From contig NZ_LMOD01000001.1 in NCBI RefSeq assembly GCF_001423485.1, positions 6,617-70,616 of the forward strand: a stretch of 64,000 nt of DNA, given 5' to 3'. Positions 15,567 through 27,205 of this stretch are shown here, piece after piece. Source of the stretch: Microbacterium sp. Leaf320. Lineage in GTDB: Bacteria; Actinomycetota; Actinomycetes; Actinomycetales; Microbacteriaceae. How positions within the stretch are numbered: position 1 is the first letter of the stretch; each line of letters starts with the position of its first letter. The notes beneath the pieces are model-generated. The model saw nothing but the letters and a program-made list of their open reading frames with translations. It was not told where the DNA came from and made no database searches. The translations under genes and the position numbers were made by a program.

Positions 15567-15640
15567 GGCAGGGTAGCTCAGCTGGTCAGAGCGCACGACT
15601 CATAATCGTGAGGTCGCGGGTTCAAGCCCCGCTCCTGCTA
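15567..15640 (+). tRNA. tRNA-Met (CAT), elongator type; integration site of the AICE
   Basis: The 74-nt cloverleaf has anticodon stem CACGA/TCGTG and loop CTCATAA, giving CAT. The absence of three consecutive G:C pairs in the anticodon stem argues against initiator tRNA. Its 3' part, from 15598, is inside the 48-bp repeat shared with 27130-27177, so the element restores the 3' half of the gene on integration. Confidence 0.9.
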
Positions 15641-15645
15641 CAGAT
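15598..15645 (+). repeat. attL (48-bp direct repeat in tRNA-Met)
   Basis: Identical to 27130-27177, beginning ACTCATAATCGTG in the anticodon loop and ending CTACAGAT just past the tRNA. Weaker similarity continues through the terminator on both sides. Confidence 0.93.
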
Positions 15646-15646
15646 C

Positions 15647-15672
15647 AAAACCCCTGGGATTCCGGGGGTTTT
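15647..15672 (+). terminator. Terminator after tRNA-Met (element-borne copy)
   Basis: Stem 15647-15657/15662-15672 (AAAACCCCTGG, with one G:T pair) ends in TTTT. A diverged, more perfect version lies beyond attR at 27179-27205, so the element carries its own terminator along with the tRNA 3' end. Confidence 0.8.
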
Positions 15673-17237: not shown

Positions 17238-17942
17238 TCAGGCCCAGGCTCCTCGATACGCGATTGGAAGTTCATCGTTGAGCGACTCGAGTATCTCGCG
17301 GAACGGCGGCAGCGAGACATCATCGCTCCAGAACTCGGTCGCTCCCGCCCACTGAGCGATCCAGATTGGCGGCTCTGTGCGTGCTGCATCGACCCGGACG
17401 AGACATTCGCTTTCGAGCAGCCGCGCAAGGGTCCGGTTCTTCACTCGGACCGTGTCACGGACGATGCCGCCAGCTCGCGCCAGTGCTTGGGGGCGGCTTG
17501 TCGATGCTTTCGAGATGCCGACCTTGTACAGTCCCGGCTCTTCAAAATGAATGAGGTAGACGACGCACTCTTGGGCATCCTGAATCTCGAAGTCCAACAT
17601 GTCCCACGCATGCCGAAGGTACATCTTGATCTGTCGCGATTGATCTTCCGAGGAAGGCTTCGTGAGTTGACCCGTCCGGCGAAAGGCAACGCACAGATCG
17701 TCGTATCGAGGATCGGGACGACGCCACGCCGCGAGCCAGCTCCTTGCCTGGAGCCTTGTGGGATGACCCGACCACCAACCTTCTCCGGGCGTGCGTGCGG
17801 CGTCGGGGAGGGCGCGCCCGAGGATGGCTTCGATCTCGACGAAGCTCAGCAAGACCTCCTCCGCTTCCTCGTGGGTACGCAGGTAGTCGTACAGCGGCGC
17901 GTATGGCCCCATCTGCACTTCGTGGTGATCTCGCAGCGCCAT
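17238..17942 (-). CDS. DUF7662 - GIY-YIG/T5orf172-like fusion protein
   Basis: 234 aa. Residues 11-75 (YAPLYDYLRTHEEAEEVLLS, then ARTPGEGWWS) resemble the DUF7662 module found with DNA-processing enzymes. Residues 127-180 resemble the GIY-YIG superfamily as seen in T5orf172/MUG113 proteins: VVYLIHFEEPGLYKVGIS, a downstream Arg, a GG, and Glu178 in LLESECLV. The ATG at 17942 overlaps the integrase stop (TGATG), so the two genes are translationally coupled. A role in element processing or defence is inference. GTG 17945 and ATG 17912 are alternative starts. Confidence 0.6.
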   Translation of the reverse strand: MALRDHHEVQMGPYAPLYDYLRTHEEAEEVLLSFVEIEAILGRALPDAARTPGEGWWSGHPTRLQARSWLAAWRRPDPRYDDLCVAFRRTGQLTKPSSEDQSRQIKMYLRHAWDMLDFEIQDAQECVVYLIHFEEPGLYKVGISKASTSRPQALARAGGIVRDTVRVKNRTLARLLESECLVRVDAARTEPPIWIAQWAGATEFWSDDVSLPPFREILESLNDELPIAYRGAWA

Positions 17943-19066
17943 CACTTTGTTCCCATCAGTCTGTCGAGCGCACCGTTCGCGCGGACCGCCGCATCAGATC
18001 TTGCGCGGCTGTAACGCTCCGTGACCTGCATCGAGGAATGACCGAGGATAGCCTGGACATCGTTCGCAGCAGCGCCAGCATCGAAGAGCAAGGTCGCGAG
18101 TGTGTGGCGAAGGTCATGGATGCGAAGATCAGGGCGATCGAGACGATTCCGCAGATCGTCCCAGTCGACGGCCCGGCGAACATTCGATGTGTTGAGCCGA
18201 CCGCCGTTCGGGCCTGTGAACACCAGGTCATTCCGTCCGAGCCCTGCAACCCTACGAACAATGATCGAGCGCAGGGCGGAGGGGAGTGGCACAGTCCGTT
18301 CCTTGTGACTCTTTGGCGATTGTTCGCGCACTCTGCCACCGCCGGCAGGCGAGAAGCTACGCCGGACATGGATGACGCCGTGCGCCAGATCGACGTCGCC
18401 CACCCTCAACGCGCTTGCCTCGCCAGCACGCATGCCCGTGTACACCAAGGCCGCCAGATAATCGCGGTGAGGCCCCTCATCGACAGAGTCGAGCATCGTT
18501 GAGACCTCGGGCAGCGTTAGCGCCCGCGAACGAAAGCTGGACGGGCGTTCGTCGCGTGGACGCCTCGCCAACCGCACCGGATTCACTCCGATGATTTCTG
18601 CACGCGCAGCCCCCTCGAGTAGTCGACTGAGCACGGCCAGAGCGTCGTTGCGGGTGGATGCCGATCCGCTCCATCCTGTTATCGAGTCGTCCACGTCACT
18701 CACCCCGATGGACTCGATCTTTCGATGGCCAAGCCACGGCTGTACTCGGAGTCGCCACCCACGTTCGTACGCGGCAGTCGTCGCGGGGCGTAGTCCTTCT
18801 GTGAGCGACGCCCAATGCCGAACCTGCCAAGCATTCAGCGTCATCCCACCGTCCGGGCGCACCTGCGAACGCATCTCGCTACGGATCTTCTTCGCCTCGC
18901 CGAGCGTGTCCACGAGGTAGCTCCGCTCTCGGTCTTCTCCGTTGAGGCCGGTAGCCCACACGCGGACCTGATACTTGTTGCGGTCCGCACGATAGCGAAT
19001 GCCCTCGGGCAGCGGCTTGCGGGTCTTGGGGTCGATCCGCACGCTACTGGAGGCCACGAGTGCCAC
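17942..19066 (-). CDS. int: Tyrosine site-specific integrase of the element
   Basis: 374 aa. The N-terminal arm-binding region is followed by a core-binding SAM-like domain (about 75-165). The catalytic domain shows TGMRAGEASALR (first Arg, near 217), HDLRH (near 315) and LGHSSMQVTERYSR (His and nucleophilic Tyr near 352). It recombines attP with the tRNA-Met attB. It starts with GTG 19066 inside the end of xis (23-bp overlap); GTG 19057 is possible. Unlike many integrases it is not the gene next to the att site: three genes separate it from attL. Confidence 0.93.
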   Translation of the reverse strand: MALVASSSVRIDPKTRKPLPEGIRYRADRNKYQVRVWATGLNGEDRERSYLVDTLGEAKKIRSEMRSQVRPDGGMTLNAWQVRHWASLTEGLRPATTAAYERGWRLRVQPWLGHRKIESIGVSDVDDSITGWSGSASTRNDALAVLSRLLEGAARAEIIGVNPVRLARRPRDERPSSFRSRALTLPEVSTMLDSVDEGPHRDYLAALVYTGMRAGEASALRVGDVDLAHGVIHVRRSFSPAGGGRVREQSPKSHKERTVPLPSALRSIIVRRVAGLGRNDLVFTGPNGGRLNTSNVRRAVDWDDLRNRLDRPDLRIHDLRHTLATLLFDAGAAANDVQAILGHSSMQVTERYSRARSDAAVRANGALDRLMGTK

Positions 19067-19280
19067 CCGCGTCGAGGAAGGTTTCGATTGTCGACAGCCT
19101 CCACAGCATGTGCTTGCCCATGTGCGCGTCAGGAAACGGGACCCGTGCCTGTCGTCGCAACGAATCGAAGGTCGAGAGAGGCACGCGACAGCGGGCAGCC
19201 ACCTCCCGGCGAGTCAAGTACTTGTCCTCGACGGCCTCTGACTCAGCAGTGTTTTCGACCAGCTCAAGTTCTTTACGCAT
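19044..19280 (-). CDS. xis: Excisionase / MerR-like helix-turn-helix protein
   Basis: 78 aa. YLTRREVAARCRVPLSTFDSL is a helix-turn-helix and GKHMLWRLSTIETFL the wing region, as in AlpA/Xis proteins of actinobacterial elements. ATG 19280 lies 8 bp inside the end of repSA, and the 3' end overlaps int. It should bend or bind DNA near att to favour excision. Confidence 0.85.
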   Translation of the reverse strand: MRKELELVENTAESEAVEDKYLTRREVAARCRVPLSTFDSLRRQARVPFPDAHMGKHMLWRLSTIETFLDAGGTRGLQ

Positions 19281-20634
19281 CACTCTTTCCTCTCTGAGAT
19301 TCGAACCGCACCCGTCGTGCGTCTCGCCATTCACGTGCTGCGCGGGCTGCTTCGATCGCGAGAGCCCGGTCACCCTCATTCCGCCAGCCCATTCCCGCAA
19401 AGCTCCATGAGCCCACTACCAGCACCTCGTCGACGTCGTATCCTTTCTCTTTGGCTCGTTCCACGGTGCGTGCCAAGCGCCAAGCGCGACGGGCTCCTCG
19501 CAGCGAGCCGAGTGTCACCGAGTACCGGCGCGACTTCGAGGAGAAGTGTCCGCGGAAGCCCAGCATGTGCGACCGCTTCCCGAGCAGCGCGTAGGGGCTC
19601 TCCGGACCGTTCTCCTCGGCAATCAGCTCAGCGGTGGCCTTGATCGCTTTCACGTGCGGGCGGTCACGGCTCCCGCTACTGAGATCCTCCGTCGCCTTGG
19701 TGGCGTACTTTGCGATGTATGCCGCTACGGCTCGGTCAGAGAGCGTGCCGTCGAGCCCCTCACGACGAACGATCGGTTGAACATCGATCTGCGCACCCCA
19801 CCGGAGAACCCGAGCGGATGCCTCTCCACGCACCGCCGGAGCCTCATACGCGACTCGACGCGACGACTTCTGAACGGCAGCGATGAGACATGCTTCGGTC
19901 ACTTCGTCCGGGGCGGGCGGGAACTGTTCCGTCGGGCTTACGCCGTCGAGACGAATGATCGCGTGAAAGTGCACCGCTCCGCGCCGCTGAAACTCGGCGA
20001 CTTTGGCCAACTGGACTCGTACGATCTCCGCTGCGGCTTTCTGAGTCATCCCGAGCTCGTAAGCCAGCTGCCGCCGGAGCTGAATTGTGAACCGCCTCCA
20101 CAGCTCGGGTGCGAAGTATTGCCACACGACGTGGCCAACGTAGTCGTAGCATTCCTCGCACAGCGGCTCGCCGAGGAGTCCGTCGTCGTCGCGGTGATTG
20201 CAGAAGCACCCGCGCGGCTTGCCATGAACGCAGGTGCCACGTCTCCGGGAACCAGCCAGAGAGTGGACGGCACCGAAAGACGGAGCAGTGAGTGTGACGA
20301 ATGCCATCGGGTGTTCTCCCACTCCGTCGGGAACGCCTTTCATCCCACCCGCTGCGCCAGCCATGATCATGTGCCAGGTGTCGCCCTTGTACTCGTGGCT
20401 GCAGGATTCGCAGCGACGAGCGCGACGATTTCCGCACCTTGTGTAGGAGATGCCGTCAGGCTGCGTCTCCGCCACGAACTCACGGATCACCTCACCGGTC
20501 TGCGGATTCATCGTGGCCGACGAGCCGGTGAGTCGAACCGGGTTGGAGCAGAATCCGACGCGTGCCGCCCCTGCCATCCACTGATCGAACTCGGCGCTTC
20601 GCAACCGAGCGGCTACAACCTCAGCGATACTCAA
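19273..20634 (-). CDS. repSA: Replication initiator RepSA (rolling-circle, HUH-like)
   Basis: 453 aa, similar in layout to pSAM2 RepSA. The HUH-like motif is RGAVHFHAIIRLDG near residue 225. A conserved tyrosine region, AVAAYIAKYATKATE, follows near 320. A Cys-rich segment (CGNRRARRCESC) sits near 70. It should nick the double-strand origin to start rolling-circle replication of the excised circle. TTG 20634 is chosen because GGAGG is exactly 6 nt upstream; the frame is open to 20655. It overlaps both its neighbours. Confidence 0.9.
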   Translation of the reverse strand: MSIAEVVAARLRSAEFDQWMAGAARVGFCSNPVRLTGSSATMNPQTGEVIREFVAETQPDGISYTRCGNRRARRCESCSHEYKGDTWHMIMAGAAGGMKGVPDGVGEHPMAFVTLTAPSFGAVHSLAGSRRRGTCVHGKPRGCFCNHRDDDGLLGEPLCEECYDYVGHVVWQYFAPELWRRFTIQLRRQLAYELGMTQKAAAEIVRVQLAKVAEFQRRGAVHFHAIIRLDGVSPTEQFPPAPDEVTEACLIAAVQKSSRRVAYEAPAVRGEASARVLRWGAQIDVQPIVRREGLDGTLSDRAVAAYIAKYATKATEDLSSGSRDRPHVKAIKATAELIAEENGPESPYALLGKRSHMLGFRGHFSSKSRRYSVTLGSLRGARRAWRLARTVERAKEKGYDVDEVLVVGSWSFAGMGWRNEGDRALAIEAARAAREWRDARRVRFESQRGKSDA

Positions 20635-20995
20635 CGTCGACCTCCATTGGCACAACGCACGAGAGTGGAGCGCGCGTCAGCGGGTCGATGGACAGCGGGC
20701 GACAGACTCCGTCATCGAGCCCATTAGATCGCTGTTGGTCCTGCCAGGCGATGATCTGCGCATCAGAGCACGCATGATTCGCGATGCGTACGTCGATCGA
20801 ACCCTCATCGGCAACGGTCGGAACCTCACCCTGCGGGAACCACAGATTGCAGGACGAGGGCTGCAGGTCTGGCACATCCGATGAAGCGGTCGTGGATGCC
20901 GTTCCGAGTGTGTAACCGGCAGCTGCACCTAGACCGAGCAGGAGCGCAGCTCCCATAATCGATGCGCCGAGGACGGCGACTGTTCTCTTGTTCAT
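20621..20995 (-). CDS. Small exported or anchored protein of the element
   Basis: 124 aa. An N-terminal hydrophobic segment (VAVLGASIMGAALLLGLGAAAGYTLG) is followed by a Ser/Thr-rich linker and a small domain with four Cys (SSCNLWFP, NHACSDAQII, DGVCRPL, LSCVVP), probably two disulfides outside the cell. AGAGGAA precedes ATG 20995, which overlaps the tra stop (ATGA). No family recognised; small membrane proteins between tra and rep are common in AICEs and may help transfer. Confidence 0.65.
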   Translation of the reverse strand: MNKRTVAVLGASIMGAALLLGLGAAAGYTLGTASTTASSDVPDLQPSSCNLWFPQGEVPTVADEGSIDVRIANHACSDAQIIAWQDQQRSNGLDDGVCRPLSIDPLTRAPLSCVVPMEVDVEYR

Positions 20996-22395
20996 GATTC
21001 CTCTCCTGTTCTGTTCGTTGCATTTGACCGTGATGCCCGCGGACGCCGTACCCCTGGAGCAGCCACCTGCTCGACGGCTTGGACAGGGCGTGGACGAGGG
21101 GCGGCAAACGTCTCAGCCGCTTCTCTGATCTGCGCGTCCTCCGCGAAAGCTGCCCGCACACGCACCGGAGGCCCTGTTTCGGGAAGCACGTACGCGACTC
21201 CAGGCGTAGACGGCGAGATCTCGTGACACATCGCCCCTGCTGCAACTGCCCCGTCGCCAAGAACCATGGCCGTCTCGGTGCGGTCACGGAGCCTGAGCCC
21301 TACGGTCTGTGTGAACAAGCCCCGCGCCGGGAGCGTCTCTTTGCGGGGATCCTGCAAGCACGCGAAGACGATGAATCCCACCGCCCGTCCTTGGGATGCG
21401 AGCGTCGCGATTGCGGCATTCGCGCGGCGGAGCATGTCTCGATCGGTTTCGTACGATGTCAACGCTGCAAGCTCATCGATCAGCACGATCACGGTCGGGC
21501 TGTCGACCGAGGCGACGTGCTGCCTGGTCACCCCTGCAAGCTGGCGCGCTCTTATCTGCATCTGCGCGACAGCGTCTTCCAAGAGCGCTACGGAATGCGC
21601 TGCATCGTCTGCGAACCGCGTGAGCAGACGGCGGCCCATCGCAAGCTCCATGCCACCCTTGCGGTCGATGCCCCAAACTTCGATGAGGCCGGAGTGGATG
21701 GGCTGCGCCAGTCCCAGTAGAAGGCCCCACACGAGCGAGGCTTTACCGCTGCCGGATGACCCCGCGACCAACGTGTGTGGGCCGAGCGGGAGCCGCCAAT
21801 CGTGGCCACCTTCCGACACGCCCATCAGAACTGATCTGCCGTCCCAGTTGCTGCCGAGCTGAAGCGCGAACGAACGTGCCAGCACGTCGACGTAGTCGAT
21901 CCGCAACGCGAGCGCCCCGATCTGCTGGCCTTCTACGGCAACTCGAACGGCGTTGAAGGCCTCAGCGATGCGCCCTGTCGCCGCGACAAGATCCTCCCGC
22001 GCCAGTCCCGGAGGCATCGCAACGGGAAGGAGGCACGTCCATCCATCCCATTGCGGCTGCCCCGCGCCGGACACGAGGGGATTCCCCGCGATGTCCTTGA
22101 CCTCTAGCCGGAGGTTGCGGGCCAGGGCAGGCCATGACGCCAAGATCCATGCGCCCATCTGCTCTTGCCACCGCCGGTGCAACACGGTGTCCAGATCACG
22201 CGCTGCAAGAAGGCGGCGCAACACGACCACGGCGATCGCGCCCCCCACCAGCCAGTTGACGAGTTGGCCGACGAATGGCACCGCGCTGAAGAGCCCGAGG
22301 ACGATGAGCATTGGGATTAGCCACCATCCGCGACGCCAGAGGCGCGGCAACTCACCAGCCCAGTACGCGCGTTCGATCCGCCATGACCAGTCCAT
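20992..22395 (-). CDS. FtsK/SpoIIIE-type conjugal transfer ATPase (TraSA-like)
   Basis: 467 aa. Two transmembrane segments lie near residues 22-65 (LIPMLIVLGLFSAVPFVGQL and WLVGGAIAVVVL). The motor domain has Walker A GSSGSGKAS near 222 and Walker B TVIVLIDELAAL near 310. This is the single septal DNA pump that moves double-stranded DNA between mycelia or cells in AICEs. Ala follows the Walker A Lys, where Ser/Thr is usual. ATG 22395 overlaps the pra stop (TGATG). The longer upstream reading (to 22704) is Arg-rich shadow. Confidence 0.88.
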   Translation of the reverse strand: MDWSWRIERAYWAGELPRLWRRGWWLIPMLIVLGLFSAVPFVGQLVNWLVGGAIAVVVLRRLLAARDLDTVLHRRWQEQMGAWILASWPALARNLRLEVKDIAGNPLVSGAGQPQWDGWTCLLPVAMPPGLAREDLVAATGRIAEAFNAVRVAVEGQQIGALALRIDYVDVLARSFALQLGSNWDGRSVLMGVSEGGHDWRLPLGPHTLVAGSSGSGKASLVWGLLLGLAQPIHSGLIEVWGIDRKGGMELAMGRRLLTRFADDAAHSVALLEDAVAQMQIRARQLAGVTRQHVASVDSPTVIVLIDELAALTSYETDRDMLRRANAAIATLASQGRAVGFIVFACLQDPRKETLPARGLFTQTVGLRLRDRTETAMVLGDGAVAAGAMCHEISPSTPGVAYVLPETGPPVRVRAAFAEDAQIREAAETFAAPRPRPVQAVEQVAAPGVRRPRASRSNATNRTGEES

Positions 22396-22793
22396 CAGTC
22401 GTTGCTCCTCGGCTTGCCTGCGGGCTTCATCTCCCGAGCGCGGAGTGAGAATGCAACGCGCGGACGCCCACCGCTCTCCTTGACATACGGAGTCACTGAA
22501 AGCCCGTCGAAGAAGACCGGGCGGAAGGGGAGCCCGTTGGCCTCCGGCGGTGCCGCAGGTTCCGCGATGCTCGCGATCTTGACCGTGACCTCGTTCTGTC
22601 CCTTGCGGGCCTCGGGATCTGCGTCGATCACGCGCACCTGCCAGAGCGGGTGCCCGGTGTTCTTGTCCAGATCCTGTCCCTGTCGTTCTCCGTCGTCCGA
22701 CCACTTCGCGACGGGCTCGACCTCGCCGACCATGAACGCTCCACGAGGGAAGTACGCCTCGAAGCTGACCGGGATACCTGACTGCAGTGCCAT
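22395..22793 (-). CDS. pra: Pra-like replication, integration and excision activator
   Basis: 132 aa. The segment FEAYFPRGAFMVGEVEPVAKW, then GHPLWQVRVIDADPEARKG and LPFRPVFFDGLSVTPYV, is the typical pattern of Pra proteins of pSAM2-like elements, which activate the rep-xis-int operon. AAAGGAAC precedes ATG 22793. It is the first gene of a seven-gene overlapping chain, which fits a master-switch role. Confidence 0.85.
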   Translation of the reverse strand: MALQSGIPVSFEAYFPRGAFMVGEVEPVAKWSDDGERQGQDLDKNTGHPLWQVRVIDADPEARKGQNEVTVKIASIAEPAAPPEANGLPFRPVFFDGLSVTPYVKESGGRPRVAFSLRAREMKPAGKPRSND

Positions 22794-22951: not shown

Positions 22952-23560
22952 ATGAGTGAACTGTCCGCGCTACCCGTGTGGGGCGTCGTGCCGCCACCTG
23001 TGGCCGCGGTTCTTCAGCGCCTGAAAACCAAGGCGGCGGATGCTGTCAGCGCCATGGACGCGGCGCAGATCACGAGCAGTACGCCGCAGAACCACGACGA
23101 AGCGTTCTTGAAGATGTCCGCAGCGGCTGAGGCAGCGGACCGGGCGACTCGCGACTACCGGAGTGTGTTCAATGCCTACGCTCACAGGTTCCACAAGCCG
23201 AAGCCGCCCATCGGTGAACTTGCCGCGATGCAGGGCACCATCACGCAGTCTTTCGCCTCTCGCTACACGGCGAAAACGGTCGGCGCAATAGAGGCTCTAC
23301 TTTCACCGGCGCCGGACCTAGATGCCATCAGGCTTGGCATCCGCGCGCTCGGATTCGACGACCTTCGAGGTATCTCTCCCGAGCTGGACCATCAACTTGC
23401 GCTGGCGGAAGCCGACGCTAAGTTTGTCCCGTGGAAGCCGGTGCCAGACGCGTTCCGGCGCTACTCCGCAGTTGGCGAAGAGGCTGATCAGTCTCTCGGT
23501 GACCTCAGTTTCGACCTGTCGCGCAAGGTCTCATCCCCCGAACTGATAGCCGAGCTGTGA
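22952..23560 (+). CDS. Hypothetical helical protein of the element
   Basis: 202 aa with a strong ribosome site (GGAGG at 22940-22944, 7 nt before ATG). It is mostly alpha-helical, rich in Ala, with no Cys and no membrane segment. No family was recognised. It is divergent from pra and could be an element regulator or partner protein, but no DNA-binding motif is clear. Confidence 0.65.
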   Translation: MSELSALPVWGVVPPPVAAVLQRLKTKAADAVSAMDAAQITSSTPQNHDEAFLKMSAAAEAADRATRDYRSVFNAYAHRFHKPKPPIGELAAMQGTITQSFASRYTAKTVGAIEALLSPAPDLDAIRLGIRALGFDDLRGISPELDHQLALAEADAKFVPWKPVPDAFRRYSAVGEEADQSLGDLSFDLSRKVSSPELIAEL

Positions 23561-23717: not shown

Positions 23718-24953
23718 ATGATGGATCACACCAAGCCGACCGTACTCTCTCTGTTCTCGGGAGCAGGAGGCATGGATCTCGGGCTCGAAGCAGCTGGGTT
23801 CGGACACGTCGGGGTCGTGGAGATTGATCAAACTGCAGCCGCGACTCTCGCGCACAACAGGCCGGACTGGACGCATCTCGCTGGAGGTGACGTCCTAGTA
23901 GCGGCACAGACCCTAACACCGGCGTCGGTGGGTATGTCTCCGGGTGAACTCGATTTGTTGGCGGGTGGACCACCCTGCCAACCCTTTTCTCTCGCGGCAC
24001 AATGGGCCGCAACCGGGCGACGTGGTATGGAAGACACTCGAGCGCAGACAGTGCACGCAACGATGAACTTGATCCGGGCCTTCCTCCCCAAGGCGGTCCT
24101 TATGGAGAATGTTCTAGGTTTCGTGCAGGGTCAGCATTCTGCGATCAGCTTTCTCCAGAGCGAGTTTGAAGCGATATCAAAGGACACTGGTCATTCTTAC
24201 AGGCTCGAATGGCGACTACTAAACGCGGCAGATTACGGGGTCCCTCAGAACCGCCGACGCGTAATCGTCGTCGCGATCAGGGATGACCTCAGCTTCGAGT
24301 GGCCCACTCCAACACACTCCACGAATCCGATCCGTGCATGGGACGCAATCGGCGATCTGAAGAACACCTCGATTCCTAGATCCGCAGGTAAGTGGAAGGG
24401 TTTGCTGGAGAGTATCCCAGCCGGGACAAACTATCAGTGGCTCACGAGCAAGGGGGGTGGCGACGAGGTGTTTGGATATCGCACGAGGTACTGGAATTTC
24501 TTGCTCAAGCTTTCTCCAATCGAACCCTCCTGGACCCTTTCGGCATCCCCGGGGCCCGCAACCGGCCCATTCCACTGGGAGAATCGGCACCTCACAATTC
24601 GCGAGCAGCTGCGTCTACAGTCTTTTCCTGATGACTGGGAGCTGTTGGGAGATGAGCGCCAGCAGGTGAAACAAGCGGGCAATGCTACCCCCTCTTTGCT
24701 CGCTGAGGTGCTGGGCTTGGCGCTCCTCCGCTCGCTCGGTCATGACCGATCCACATCTCCGACTCTCGCGCTAAGCCGAGCCAGCACTGAACCCCCTAGA
24801 CTGGCCGAGCCACGCTCAGTTCGTCCTGAGTATCGCGACCTTATCGGGTCGAAGGCAGCTCATGCTGGAACCGGCCGAGGCCCTGCTCCCCGAGCCACGT
24901 CCGAATCAGCACAAGGGATTGCACTCTCACAGACGGGAAGAATCAATGCCTAA
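23718..24953 (+). CDS. C5-cytosine DNA methyltransferase
   Basis: 411 aa. All main C5-MTase motifs are visible: I (LSLFSGAGGMDLGLEAAGF), IV with catalytic Cys87 (GGPPCQPFS), VI (MENVLGF), VIII (PQNRRRVIVV) and X (KQAGNATP). The target recognition domain lies between VIII and X and its site cannot be read. It would methylate host and element DNA. The stop overlaps the next gene's ATG by 8 bp, so it is the first member of a three-gene unit. Lower GC than its surroundings suggests transfer. Confidence 0.93.
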   Translation: MMDHTKPTVLSLFSGAGGMDLGLEAAGFGHVGVVEIDQTAAATLAHNRPDWTHLAGGDVLVAAQTLTPASVGMSPGELDLLAGGPPCQPFSLAAQWAATGRRGMEDTRAQTVHATMNLIRAFLPKAVLMENVLGFVQGQHSAISFLQSEFEAISKDTGHSYRLEWRLLNAADYGVPQNRRRVIVVAIRDDLSFEWPTPTHSTNPIRAWDAIGDLKNTSIPRSAGKWKGLLESIPAGTNYQWLTSKGGGDEVFGYRTRYWNFLLKLSPIEPSWTLSASPGPATGPFHWENRHLTIREQLRLQSFPDDWELLGDERQQVKQAGNATPSLLAEVLGLALLRSLGHDRSTSPTLALSRASTEPPRLAEPRSVRPEYRDLIGSKAAHAGTGRGPAPRATSESAQGIALSQTGRINA

Positions 24954-26082
24954 CGACGATGCGGCAGCCTCCGCTGTGACGATCGGCCCGCCGATTGCTA
25001 TCGTGCGGCTGCCAGTTACAAGTCTCGCGCTCGACCCTGAGAATCCTCGCCTGCCCGAGGAACTTCTCGGATCCACCGAGGCCGCAATGCTCTCGTGGCT
25101 AGAAGAGACCTCAAACCTCGAGGAACTCGCCTCGTCGATGATCCAGAATGGCTTCTTCGATCATGAGCCCCTGATCGTCCGCACCACCCCCGACCCTCAG
25201 AAGTATGTGGTTGTAGAAGGCAACCGACGATTCGCCACGATACAGATCCTGCTTCAAACGGATGCAGCGGTTGCCGCGGACCTCGAGTTCGATTTTGAGG
25301 TTGAACCGACGGCAGAACAGCTTGACCTGATTCGGGTGGTGCCTTGCGTCGTCGTCACCAGCGATGCGGAGGTGCGTAAGTTCCTCGGCTACCGCCATAT
25401 CGGGGGCATCAAGACTTGGAGCGCTGAAGCCAAAGCGCGATATTTAGAGACCGAGGTCGAGGGAGCCGCGGCGGCAGGGAGCGTCAATCCGTTTAAGGAC
25501 GTAGGAAAGCGCGTCGGGACGAACGCTCTAGGGGTCCGCGGGCCTTACTTGGCGCTGAAAACCCTCAAGGTGGCGCGTGACGACCTTGACCTCGGTGAAA
25601 CAGCTAGAACAGTTCTTCGAGAACGTTTCGGAGTCTGGAATCGACTTCTGAACAGCGCTGAAGTCCGAACCTTCATCGGGCTTGGGGACGCGATGGACTA
25701 CGCTGCGATTCAATCGCGACTGACTCAATTGAGTCGGCCAAATCTGAAGATGGTCCTCGACGACTTGGTTCCTCAGGCAGGAACACGGCTCGCCTTGCTG
25801 CAGGACTCTCGAGACGTCACTACATACGGTCGGGTTCTCGCGAATGATGCTGCTCGCGAGGCGTTGATTGTGTACCGCGATCTTGATCTTGCTGCTCAGG
25901 TTGCCGATGGTTCGACTTTGCCTCAGAAGCTGCGCAACATCACTAAGAGCTTGGATCTCTTGGTGCGAAATATCGATTCGTTCGAAATCGGATCGAGCGA
26001 AGTAGAAGCAGCTGCGAGCTTGTTCAATATGGCGCGGTCGCTCAATGTTCTTGTGAAGGACCGCCTCGATGGCGAAGATTGA
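24946..26082 (+). CDS. ParB/Srx-fold (ParB N-terminal-like) protein of the cassette
   Basis: 378 aa. The N-terminal 110 residues follow the ParB/sulfiredoxin pattern: DPENPRLPEELLG, LEELASSMIQNGFF, EPLIVRT, then the box EGNRRFATIQIL at residues 91-102. LGYRHIGGIKTWS (147-160) is a second conserved-looking stretch. The rest is helical. Proteins of this fold may bind CTP/ATP or act as nucleases. ATG 24946 has GGGAAG upstream and overlaps the methyltransferase stop. Its own 3' end overlaps the next gene by 14 bp. A role in DNA sensing or cleavage is inference. Confidence 0.75.
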   Translation: MPNDDAAASAVTIGPPIAIVRLPVTSLALDPENPRLPEELLGSTEAAMLSWLEETSNLEELASSMIQNGFFDHEPLIVRTTPDPQKYVVVEGNRRFATIQILLQTDAAVAADLEFDFEVEPTAEQLDLIRVVPCVVVTSDAEVRKFLGYRHIGGIKTWSAEAKARYLETEVEGAAAAGSVNPFKDVGKRVGTNALGVRGPYLALKTLKVARDDLDLGETARTVLRERFGVWNRLLNSAEVRTFIGLGDAMDYAAIQSRLTQLSRPNLKMVLDDLVPQAGTRLALLQDSRDVTTYGRVLANDAAREALIVYRDLDLAAQVADGSTLPQKLRNITKSLDLLVRNIDSFEIGSSEVEAAASLFNMARSLNVLVKDRLDGED

Positions 26083-26992
26083 ACCGCTGATCGATAAGTA
26101 CGGCACATTCGCGCGAGCATCATTCTTCGCAGATTACCTCGAGGTTGTCGCGCTACGCGACCAGCGGGTGAAGCTGTCCTCTCTGCGCGATCTCATTGAA
26201 GAGACCTACCCTCGAGTGAAGCGAATCTTACGGCCTGGGGGCGACGAAGAAGACCTCCCGGACTGGAAGCCGACCGATCTGGCCGATGAGGCCTGGACTT
26301 GTATCCTTCAGCGAGCAGATGTGCTCGGAGATCGTTACCCGTTCACCATTCGGCGTGAAGTACTGAACCGTGCTGCGGGGCTGAACCCGGCCGATTCTGT
26401 GTATGTCGGCCTGTTGGCGATTACGGTGAGCCACGCGTTCAGCATCATGGCGCCGAGCCTCGTGGAACACCTGTTGGAAGAGGTCGTGAGCGATTCGCTG
26501 GAGAACGTGGGGCTAAAGGTGGGGCGGCTCGGACCGCTCTCCCGATCAAGCGGATTCGACTTCGTGCGAACGATGGACGCGCTCGGACAGGCGCTCTCGA
26601 TTCCAATCAATGCCAATGCAACGACTCGGCGTAACAACGCTAACGACGAGGACGTGGATATTGTTGCCCACCTCGATTGGGGCACCGCTCGATCGGGACG
26701 ATGGTTGTTCGTTGGTCAGGTCACCTGCGCTGTGAGCGACGACTGGAGGAAGAAGGCTCAGGAGCCAGCAGTCAATGACTGGCAGAAGTTCTTCGGCGAA
26801 GTGATCGCCCCCGTACCGTTCCTCGCTGTTCCTCACCACGCTGACGATGAGACTTTCAAGTACGTAACGAGCATCTCTGTAAATATCCTCGATAGAACGC
26901 GCATCGTCCAAAACCTGCGTCAGAACACAGCGGCTCAGCGAGACGTCGTTGACGCGCTGATGGATGCAGAGTACGCGTCGTTCAAGGTCTGA
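26069..26992 (+). CDS. Putative restriction endonuclease-like protein of the cassette
   Basis: 307 aa. The N-terminal half is helical. The C-terminal half has DVDIVAHLDWGTARSGRWLF (Asp197 candidate) then GQVTCAVSDDWRKKA (216-230) and VPFLAVPHH, the order and spacing of strand motifs in some PD-(D/E)XK restriction enzymes. The usual acidic-x-Lys is replaced by QVT, so catalysis by this site is uncertain. Its 14-bp overlap with the ParB-like gene and position after a methyltransferase make it the natural restriction partner. AAGGA lies about 9 nt before ATG 26069. Confidence 0.6.
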   Translation: MAKIEPLIDKYGTFARASFFADYLEVVALRDQRVKLSSLRDLIEETYPRVKRILRPGGDEEDLPDWKPTDLADEAWTCILQRADVLGDRYPFTIRREVLNRAAGLNPADSVYVGLLAITVSHAFSIMAPSLVEHLLEEVVSDSLENVGLKVGRLGPLSRSSGFDFVRTMDALGQALSIPINANATTRRNNANDEDVDIVAHLDWGTARSGRWLFVGQVTCAVSDDWRKKAQEPAVNDWQKFFGEVIAPVPFLAVPHHADDETFKYVTSISVNILDRTRIVQNLRQNTAAQRDVVDALMDAEYASFKV

Positions 26993-27023: not shown

Positions 27024-27129
27024 GGCTCTGCTGAAACCACCATCAACCAGTCGCGACCAACGATGACACCATCCGCGGAATCACGCGGCCAACGGGGACG
27101 AACAAGTACCCGTCACCCCACAGCACCTA

Positions 27130-27177
27130 ACTCATAATCGTGAGGTCGCGGGTTCAAGCCCCGCTCCTGCTACAGAT
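27130..27177 (+). repeat. attR (48-bp direct repeat, tRNA-Met 3' remnant)
   Basis: Identical to 15598-15645. It is the displaced 3' end of the original chromosomal tRNA-Met gene, followed by its original terminator. It lacks the 5' half and is not a functional tRNA. Confidence 0.93.
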
Positions 27178-27178
27178 G

Positions 27179-27205
27179 AAAACCCCCGGGATTCCCGGGG
27201 GTTTT
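27179..27205 (+). terminator. Original chromosomal terminator of tRNA-Met
   Basis: A perfect 12-bp stem, AAAACCCCCGGG (27179-27190) with CCCGGGGGTTTT (27194-27205), has a 3-nt loop and ends in a T run. Confidence 0.85.

Follow-up and report, generated by a model that had tools for sequence, protein, structure and literature searches.

How could a methyltransferase, a ParB-like protein and a nuclease-like protein encoded in one overlapping gene array work together, and does this combination occur in other genomes and mobile elements? These questions are raised by three genes of Microbacterium sp. Leaf320 (Actinomycetota), located at positions 23718-26992 of a 64,000-nucleotide stretch of its genome (contig NZ_LMOD01000001.1, positions 6,617 to 70,616; hereafter the window, to which coordinates refer unless a locus is named). 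An earlier note, made from the sequence letters, had described them as a methyltransferase gene and two further genes that overlap in series, by 8 bp and by 14 bp, and proposed them as a candidate for an undescribed defence system. The layout is as described, with all three genes on the + strand: a C5-cytosine DNA methyltransferase gene (P0001, 411 aa, 23718-24953; Pfam, TIGR00675) overlaps by 8 bp a ParB/KorB-like gene (P0002, 378 aa, 24946-26082; AlphaFold, Foldseek, VIA-align, PADLOC), which overlaps by 14 bp a gene for a presumed nuclease of PD-(D/E)XK fold (P0003, 307 aa, 26069-26992; AlphaFold, VIA-align, PHROG). The ATG start of the second gene is at 24946, and its longest possible open reading frame (ORF) opens at 24862.

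The analysis described here makes it fairly probable that the three genes form a restriction-modification-like defence module, the cargo of an actinomycete integrative and conjugative element (AICE), and that within this module a ParB-type protein gated by nucleoside triphosphate (NTP) licenses a separate nuclease. The invariant unit is the pair formed by the ParB-like and nuclease-fold genes, while the class of the accompanying methyltransferase is exchanged. The observation is beyond chance, since motif residues are conserved in 91 relatives and the density of methyltransferase genes is raised near the pair.

A conserved gene pair with exchanged methyltransferases

The family became visible only by means of a ParB profile applied to large collections. 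Run against about 85,000 genomes, it gave 349 relatives, and the genome counts given here refer to the best 80 of these 349. In 78 of the 80 loci the next gene after the ParB-like one is a relative of the third gene; in the remaining two (L026, L037) the ParB reading frame reaches the contig end. Viral contigs carry the pair in 54 of 78 loci, the rest being 22 members of a longer ParB branch without third gene (447-554 aa, apart from a single ORF of 369 aa) and 2 loci cut short. The single distant match and four plasmid matches of the ParB-like gene each encode a ParB-like protein of ~370 aa, with a related gene of ~285-365 aa next in line. Genome and viral loci, together with L006-L010 and L094, make up 138 pair loci, which contain near-copies (e.g., L024/L025, L042/L043, L066/L067/L110, L135/L153) and the apparent duplicate L015/L094; a stricter set (n = 90) was defined without incomplete rows, loci from other sources and rows more than 70% identical in protein 3. 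Across 123 loci with both genes nearly complete, the median gap between the stop of gene 2 and the script-chosen start of gene 3 is 3 bp. The pair is found in chromosomes, P2-like phages and plasmids across several phyla, its hosts including members of Actinomycetota, Pseudomonadota, Bacteroidota, Acidobacteriota, Planctomycetota, Chloroflexota, Verrucomicrobiota and Bacillota, and the recurrence that had been proposed as a check, a search for the trio in other genomes, gave the pair with a methyltransferase across many genomes and phages.

Searches with single sequences gave a much smaller picture. With protein 3 alone as query, none of 47 pattern matches in genome contigs and none of 7 in viral contigs were confirmed, no match was obtained among plasmids, and the only hits were itself among 58 relatives and two of 394 genomes of the class (itself and G101). 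Protein 2 used as query in 148 relatives gave three matches, namely itself and two long-branch proteins, and a profile built from six third proteins matched two of 396 genomes of the phylum, one being the window's own.

The two proteins of the pair are inherited together. Their pairwise distances correlate with r 0.86 over 91 rows and with r 0.85 over the 60 rows that have a C5 methyltransferase, where the correlations with the methyltransferase reach only 0.50 and 0.48, all of these values including shared ancestry. As a separate observation, the ParB-like gene of Microbacterium sp. BR1 (L045, 8836-10884) is split into two overlapping ORFs, hence this copy may be broken or misassembled.

The first gene of the window was correctly recognized in the earlier note as a C5 methyltransferase: its product matches the Pfam family DNA_methylase (PF00145, E 3e-54, residues 8-335) and TIGR00675 (166 bits against a cut-off of 100.65), and the sequences PPCQPF, ENV and QNRRR, which we take to be the catalytic motifs of C5 methyltransferases, are readable in it, the codon of the catalytic PCQ cysteine lying at about 23976-23978. 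A DNA methyltransferase with the motifs of its family, as belongs to a type II restriction-modification system, is thus present. Its closest counterparts among the fetched loci are methyltransferases that adjoin the pair (53% identity in L033, 52% in L013). A second C5 methyltransferase of the host genome, 34% identical to that of the window, is encoded elsewhere (G000, C2:328589-329617).

Methyltransferases around the pair were called with profiles built from flank clusters and counted as near when located within 1.6 kb. By this measure 118 of the 138 pair loci have one, of the C5 class in 84 loci, of the D12 class (Dam-like, PF02086) in 30 and of the N6/N4 class in 4; the figure is 80 of 90 in the stricter set. 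Where at least 3 kb is available on both sides, it is 78 of 89 for all pair loci and 53 of 59 for the stricter set. With the same profiles, the density of methyltransferase ORFs up to 2 kb from the pair is 2.61 per 10 kb, vs 0.10-0.22 beyond. As the near methyltransferases fall in three classes, the pair is the constant part and the methyltransferase class is what has been swapped.

This exchange occurs but is not free. In the tree of 91 ParB-like rows, 18 rows with D12 enzymes, 3 with N4 enzymes and one without methyltransferase group together as one set of 22 with support of 99/99, and the window falls within a set of 10 rows which all have C5 enzymes (100/100); five methyltransferase labels require 13 changes on this tree vs 29.2 when shuffled. 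The ParB-like protein of the locus with the best-matching methyltransferase (L033) lies outside the 10-row set of the window, which fits exchange.

Among the 89 loci with 3 kb on both sides, those without a near methyltransferase are L006, L007, L010, L039, L052, L057, L073, L076, L082, L085 and L088. Five of these 11 (L007, L010, L082, L085, L088) have a C5 methyltransferase 2-6.5 kb away, with Z1-domain genes in L085 and L007, L052 has only a C5 fragment at 7.3 kb, and L073 has an Mrr_cat gene upstream. In the surrounding DNA examined of L039 (8929-11153) and L057 (8944-11144) no methyltransferase of the three classes was detected, and these two loci offer a natural setting in which to see if the pair can work on its own. 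An extra gene is placed between the pair and the C5 methyltransferase in two close relatives, L014 (2268-3086) and L016 (11013-11903); a relative of it occurs in a third, L017 (4993-6279), where the methyltransferase ORF is only a 540-nt piece. By its look we take this gene to be a glycosylase of the EndoIII/Mig type, which beside a C5 methyltransferase would fit the repair of deaminated 5-methylcytosine.

Predicted folds of the second and third proteins

The ParB/sulfiredoxin box that had been noticed in gene 2, EGNRRFATIQIL, is present; the protein has a ParB_N match (E 1e-4) below the Pfam cut-off, the ParB family (PF02195) scoring 22.6 bits against a gathering cut-off of 26.3. The AlphaFold model (predicted local distance difference test, pLDDT, 92.7) consists of a predicted NTP-binding domain (about residues 16-155), a ParB-type DNA-binding domain (about 141-306) and a helical tail (310-378). 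Foldseek matched the model to Noc (7.6e-6). In VIA-align, KorB covers model residues 16-306 at Z 11.5, with 203 residues aligned, ParB-CTP complexes score Z 10.6-10.7 and Noc 10.5, and residues 141-305 alone match the DNA-binding domains of DNA-bound Spo0J, Noc and KorB at Z 5.5-6.1. On the basis of these VIA-align matches the protein is predicted to have the full ParB plan, with the NTP-binding and the ParB DNA-binding domains of the ParB-CTPase fold both present in the model. In an alignment of 91 relatives (A4) each residue of the motif EGNRR (E91, G92, N93, R94 and R95; 25216-25230, + strand), which presumably occupies the position of the P-motif, is found in 91 of 91 rows, and H151 and W158 are invariant as well.

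A survey of the fold reports that CTP, ATP and GTP binders exist, that the nucleotide is not reliably predictable from sequence and that bulky loops such as GFFKP are commoner among ATP binders (PMC12704722); the loop GFFDHEP of protein 2 is a weak hint at ATP. Among defence families, the protein matches the PADLOC model PD-Lambda-5_A with E 1.6e-24 (aa 21-170 to model positions 6-162 of 466). PD-λ-5 protects E. coli broadly, was described by its discoverers as a compacted prophage version of a system of restriction-modification and abortive infection, and was cloned in a host without the mrr region (PMC9519451).

Protein 3 has no Pfam, NCBIfam or PADLOC family. The stretch DVDIVAHLDW...GQVTCA, in which a degenerate PD-(D/E)XK core had been suspected, is present; the AlphaFold model (pLDDT 91.5; predicted template modelling score, pTM, 0.90) has a PD-(D/E)XK core fold, the kind of nuclease-fold partner expected beside the methyltransferase of a type II system, and the aspartate and glutamine guessed in the earlier note are conserved. 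The putative active site spans 26657-26755 on the + strand, with D197 (26657-26659), Q217 (26717-26719) and K229 (26753-26755) found in 91, 90 and 89 of the 91 rows of alignment A3, respectively; R276 is found in 91, W226 in 85 and E137 in 67 rows. The simplest reading of these positions is a displaced catalytic lysine (K229), an inactive enzyme being the alternative. The best VIA-align match is 1y88 (2.8 A over 111 residues); Can2, BsaWI, the BspD6I nickase, XisH-type proteins and EndoMS are among those that come next, at Z 7-8, and MspJI scores 6.1; most of the 50 rows listed are, as we take them, PD-(D/E)XK nucleases. The top three Foldseek rows are MspJI (E 0.027-0.036), and the best BFVD row (E 0.0017) bears the name of a restriction endonuclease. 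MspJI is also the only PDB sequence match that spans the motif region ("DgGlDvvaw...gQcAs" in the family vs "DGGVDFIG...LGQAKC" in MspJI; HMMER, E 1.4).

Members of the protein 3 family match two PHROGs of unknown function, 3984 (87 of 91) and 14650 (84 of 91). Pfam applied to the 91 members gave 14 families with one member each (best E 0.0036; Mrr_cat, E 0.02), and PADLOC two single-member matches (E 0.006-0.007). The idea that the long ParB proteins contain a fused protein 3 was rejected (hhalign probability 0.2%); the long-branch and pair-type ParB proteins align over 246 columns, with a probability of 100%, and not beyond.

Mobile elements carrying the genes

The trio fills the right (attR) end of an 11.5-kb element inserted in tRNA-Met. 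A direct repeat of 86 nt is found on the attL side (15587-15672, + strand, within the tRNA-Met at 15567-15641) and, with 90% identity, at the right border (27119-27204, + strand), 126 bp past gene 3. The backbone, on the - strand at 17942-22793, includes an integrase (17942-19066), RepSA (19273-20655), FtsK (20992-22704) and an ORF at 22395-22793, assigned with Pfam; an integrase with a pSAM2-type RepSA and FtsK is presumably the gene set of an AICE. The GC content is 0.57-0.60 in the trio, 0.61-0.66 in most of the remaining element and 0.65-0.71 in the chromosome flanks. Repeat, backbone and base composition bear out the idea that the genes are mobile-element cargo next to an attR end. A scan for promoters gave 0 sites, and terminator-like sites (7 vs 3.2 in shuffles) were not used as evidence.

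A genome of the same genus (G034) has the same backbone between the same att sequences without the trio, with integrase, RepSA, FtsK and the ORF at 22395 at 73-94% identity and three smaller ORFs at 29-68%. Its slot (L180, 489-7259) contains N6/N4 methyltransferase, PRTase-CE, ORC-CDC6-like and CARF6 genes, with Schlafen/AlbA under the Pfam cut-off, so that the same slot holds different methyltransferase-anchored conflict operons in the two elements. The RepSA homologue of G034 (L174, 75% identical) shows two in-frame TGA codons within the match. The window ORF at 22952-23560 (202 aa, no family assigned) was considered as a further member of the trio and rejected; it looks like a backbone gene because a 29% homologue lies beside the same AICE backbone in G034, where the trio is absent.

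The pair also travels in phages. In E. coli P2-like prophages the ParB-like gene, the third gene and an adenine methylase are placed between the replication endonuclease and the portal gene; a query with one such D12-type copy (L108) was matched in 20 of 5426 genomes at megablast sensitivity. Profiles confirmed the trio in coliphage Wφ (NC_005056; gp98, gp96 and mth), and also a C5 version in phages vB_PaeM-D14A and vB_EcoM-12474III. The P2-like phage KL3 carries a classical EcoRII-type restriction-modification module, as its description states (PMC3091744), thus restriction-modification cargo is known in these phages.

Proposed mechanism, alternatives and comparison with known systems

In the mechanism we favour, the C5 methyltransferase would methylate a short target in resident DNA and so mark self, as its family suggests, and the ParB/KorB-type protein would most likely recognize or load on the unmethylated target DNA, its NTP switch controlling loading or sliding. 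The PD-(D/E)XK protein, with a putative site made of D, Q and a displaced K, would be recruited or licensed by this partner and cut invading DNA. A defence role is supported by the order of the pair, the proximity of methyltransferases, the predicted folds, the near-invariant D, Q and K and the correlated distances of proteins 2 and 3, as well as by the position of the pair beside the portal gene in P2-like prophages, by the other methyltransferase-anchored operon in the same slot of the G034 element and by homology to PD-λ-5, which was shown to be protective in E. coli (PMC9519451). A more specific version is put forward tentatively, being somewhat more apt to fail than to hold: unmethylated sites would be read by a ParB/KorB-type NTP-gated clamp, instead of a nuclease or a helicase, which then loads or licenses the PD-(D/E)XK nuclease; the pair would be ancient and portable, recruiting C5, D12 and N4/N6 methyltransferases in turn, and its PD-λ-5 relative would be the same recognition module with another C-terminal domain and no nuclease gene.

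Several observations weigh against the defence module. None of the three methyltransferase classes is found within 1.6 kb in 11 of the 89 loci with 3 kb on both sides, L039 lying near an MraW-family gene and L057 near sugar-metabolism genes, and the C5 methyltransferase could be an orphan that protects the element. Protein 3 lacks the lysine that QxK usually supplies, K229 sitting in the next helix, hence the protein could be inactive or use another chemistry. The fold matches of protein 3 are weak: its best VIA-align score (Z 9.2) is barely above the background best of 7-8 stated for the tool, the best Foldseek value is 0.027 with 0 of 77 rows below 0.001, and the PDB sequence search ranks two endoglucanase chains (E 0.43 and 0.44) above MspJI.

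The alternative that survives best, although it is improbable, is abortive infection triggered by restriction-modification, in which the ParB-like protein would sense the methylation state or NTP pools altered by phage, and the nuclease would attack DNA indiscriminately and kill or stop the cell. The description of PD-λ-5, with its common ParB-like part, as a combined restriction-modification and abortive infection system (PMC9519451) agrees with it, and so does the presence, among the top fold rows of protein 3, of two signal-activated nucleases, Can2 and Card1, whose structures were solved with cyclic tetra-adenylate (cA4). However, protein 3 is missing from the PD-λ-5-like long branch, which ends in a different C-terminal region, thus the abortive part need not be common to both.

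It is quite unlikely that proteins 2 and 3 perform modification-dependent (type IV-like) restriction, attacking foreign-marked DNA with the methyltransferase as a decoy or competitor; MspJI, the top Foldseek match and the sole nuclease among three weak sequence matches, and the pair-only loci L039 and L057 would suit such a role, but the sequence match spans only part of the nuclease core, and a reader of one modification leaves unexplained the methyltransferases of three families that accompany the pair. Maintenance of the element, with a ParB-like partition or transcription regulator, an orphan protecting methyltransferase and protein 3 as a degenerate, non-cutting adaptor of restriction enzyme fold, would suit the KorB/Noc/ParB architecture of protein 2 and the missing QxK lysine, but is likewise quite unlikely given that chromosomes, P2-like phages and plasmids from several phyla have the pair too, that ParA is absent from the Pfam matches of the 10 window proteins scanned and that D197, Q217 and K229 are kept to a degree unexpected for a dead enzyme.

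ParB-type NTP switches are known from chromosome segregation and gene control. If such a switch is the recognition step of restriction in the proposed module, this would be a new way of reading methylation and would explain why mobile elements carry many orphan proteins of ParB fold. The two PHROGs gain a likely role, and PD-λ-5 is placed in a larger modular family with exchangeable methyltransferases and effectors. Since coliphage Wφ carries the trio, the idea is testable at once.

The earlier note could name no type II match for the trio and proposed it as a candidate undescribed system. No description of the trio was found in a search of the running text of open-access papers, a scope that does not take in the figure of validated methyltransferase-containing systems in the DefensePredictor report (PMC13092281). 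The anatomy given in the note largely holds; what has to be amended is that the pair is the invariant unit, that the methyltransferase class is exchanged and that a relative, PD-λ-5, exists. With type II restriction-modification systems the trio has in common a methyltransferase of the right family that adjoins a nuclease-fold gene; it differs from them in having a regular ParB/KorB-like partner, in keeping the nuclease while the methyltransferase class is swapped and in lacking QxK. MspJI, with an Mrr-like nuclease core, aligns its D...Q motifs with protein 3, from which the QxK lysine is absent, and it is a weak match (E 0.027 and 1.4). MspJI is a modification-dependent enzyme made of one protein. 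Protein 2 has the NTP- and DNA-binding domains of ParB, Noc and KorB (VIA-align Z 8-11.5) and differs from them by EGNRR, the invariant H151...W158 and an operon shared with a nuclease-fold protein and a methyltransferase. In GmrSD and SspE (DUF262) an NTP module of ParB/Srx fold is tied to a nuclease, which is HNH-like and located in the same chain or a partner (PMC10952713). The motif is also another one, and SspE (6jiv) matches protein 2 at Z 5.1. We know of no ParB-type DNA-binding domain in GmrSD or SspE.

PD-λ-5 is closest to the trio. The N-terminal ~250 residues of PD-λ-5_A are common to protein 2, each of the 91 pair-type ParB rows has a PD-Lambda-5_A model match of 1e-5 or better, the two D12 methyltransferases tested beside the pair match PD-Lambda-5_B (L131, 8e-87; L108, 5e-94), and a prophage setting is common to PD-λ-5 and some copies of the pair. 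The long ParB branch is PD-λ-5-like: both members tested (L152, L011) match PD-Lambda-5_A, a D12 methyltransferase is found within 1.6 kb in 22 of 24 loci, and the neighbours of L142, L152, L158 and L161 match PD-Lambda-5_B, that of L011 not. The window trio itself was rejected as a member of PD-λ-5: its second protein (378 aa) has another C-terminal region and no full-length match to PD-Lambda-5_A, its methyltransferase is of the C5 and not the D12 class, with PD-Lambda-5_B not among the best 25 of 63 PADLOC matches, and a separate PD-(D/E)XK gene without PADLOC model follows its ParB-like gene. As judged from their sequences, the trio and PD-λ-5 have a common ParB-like module, a partly common methyltransferase type and a different presumed effector.

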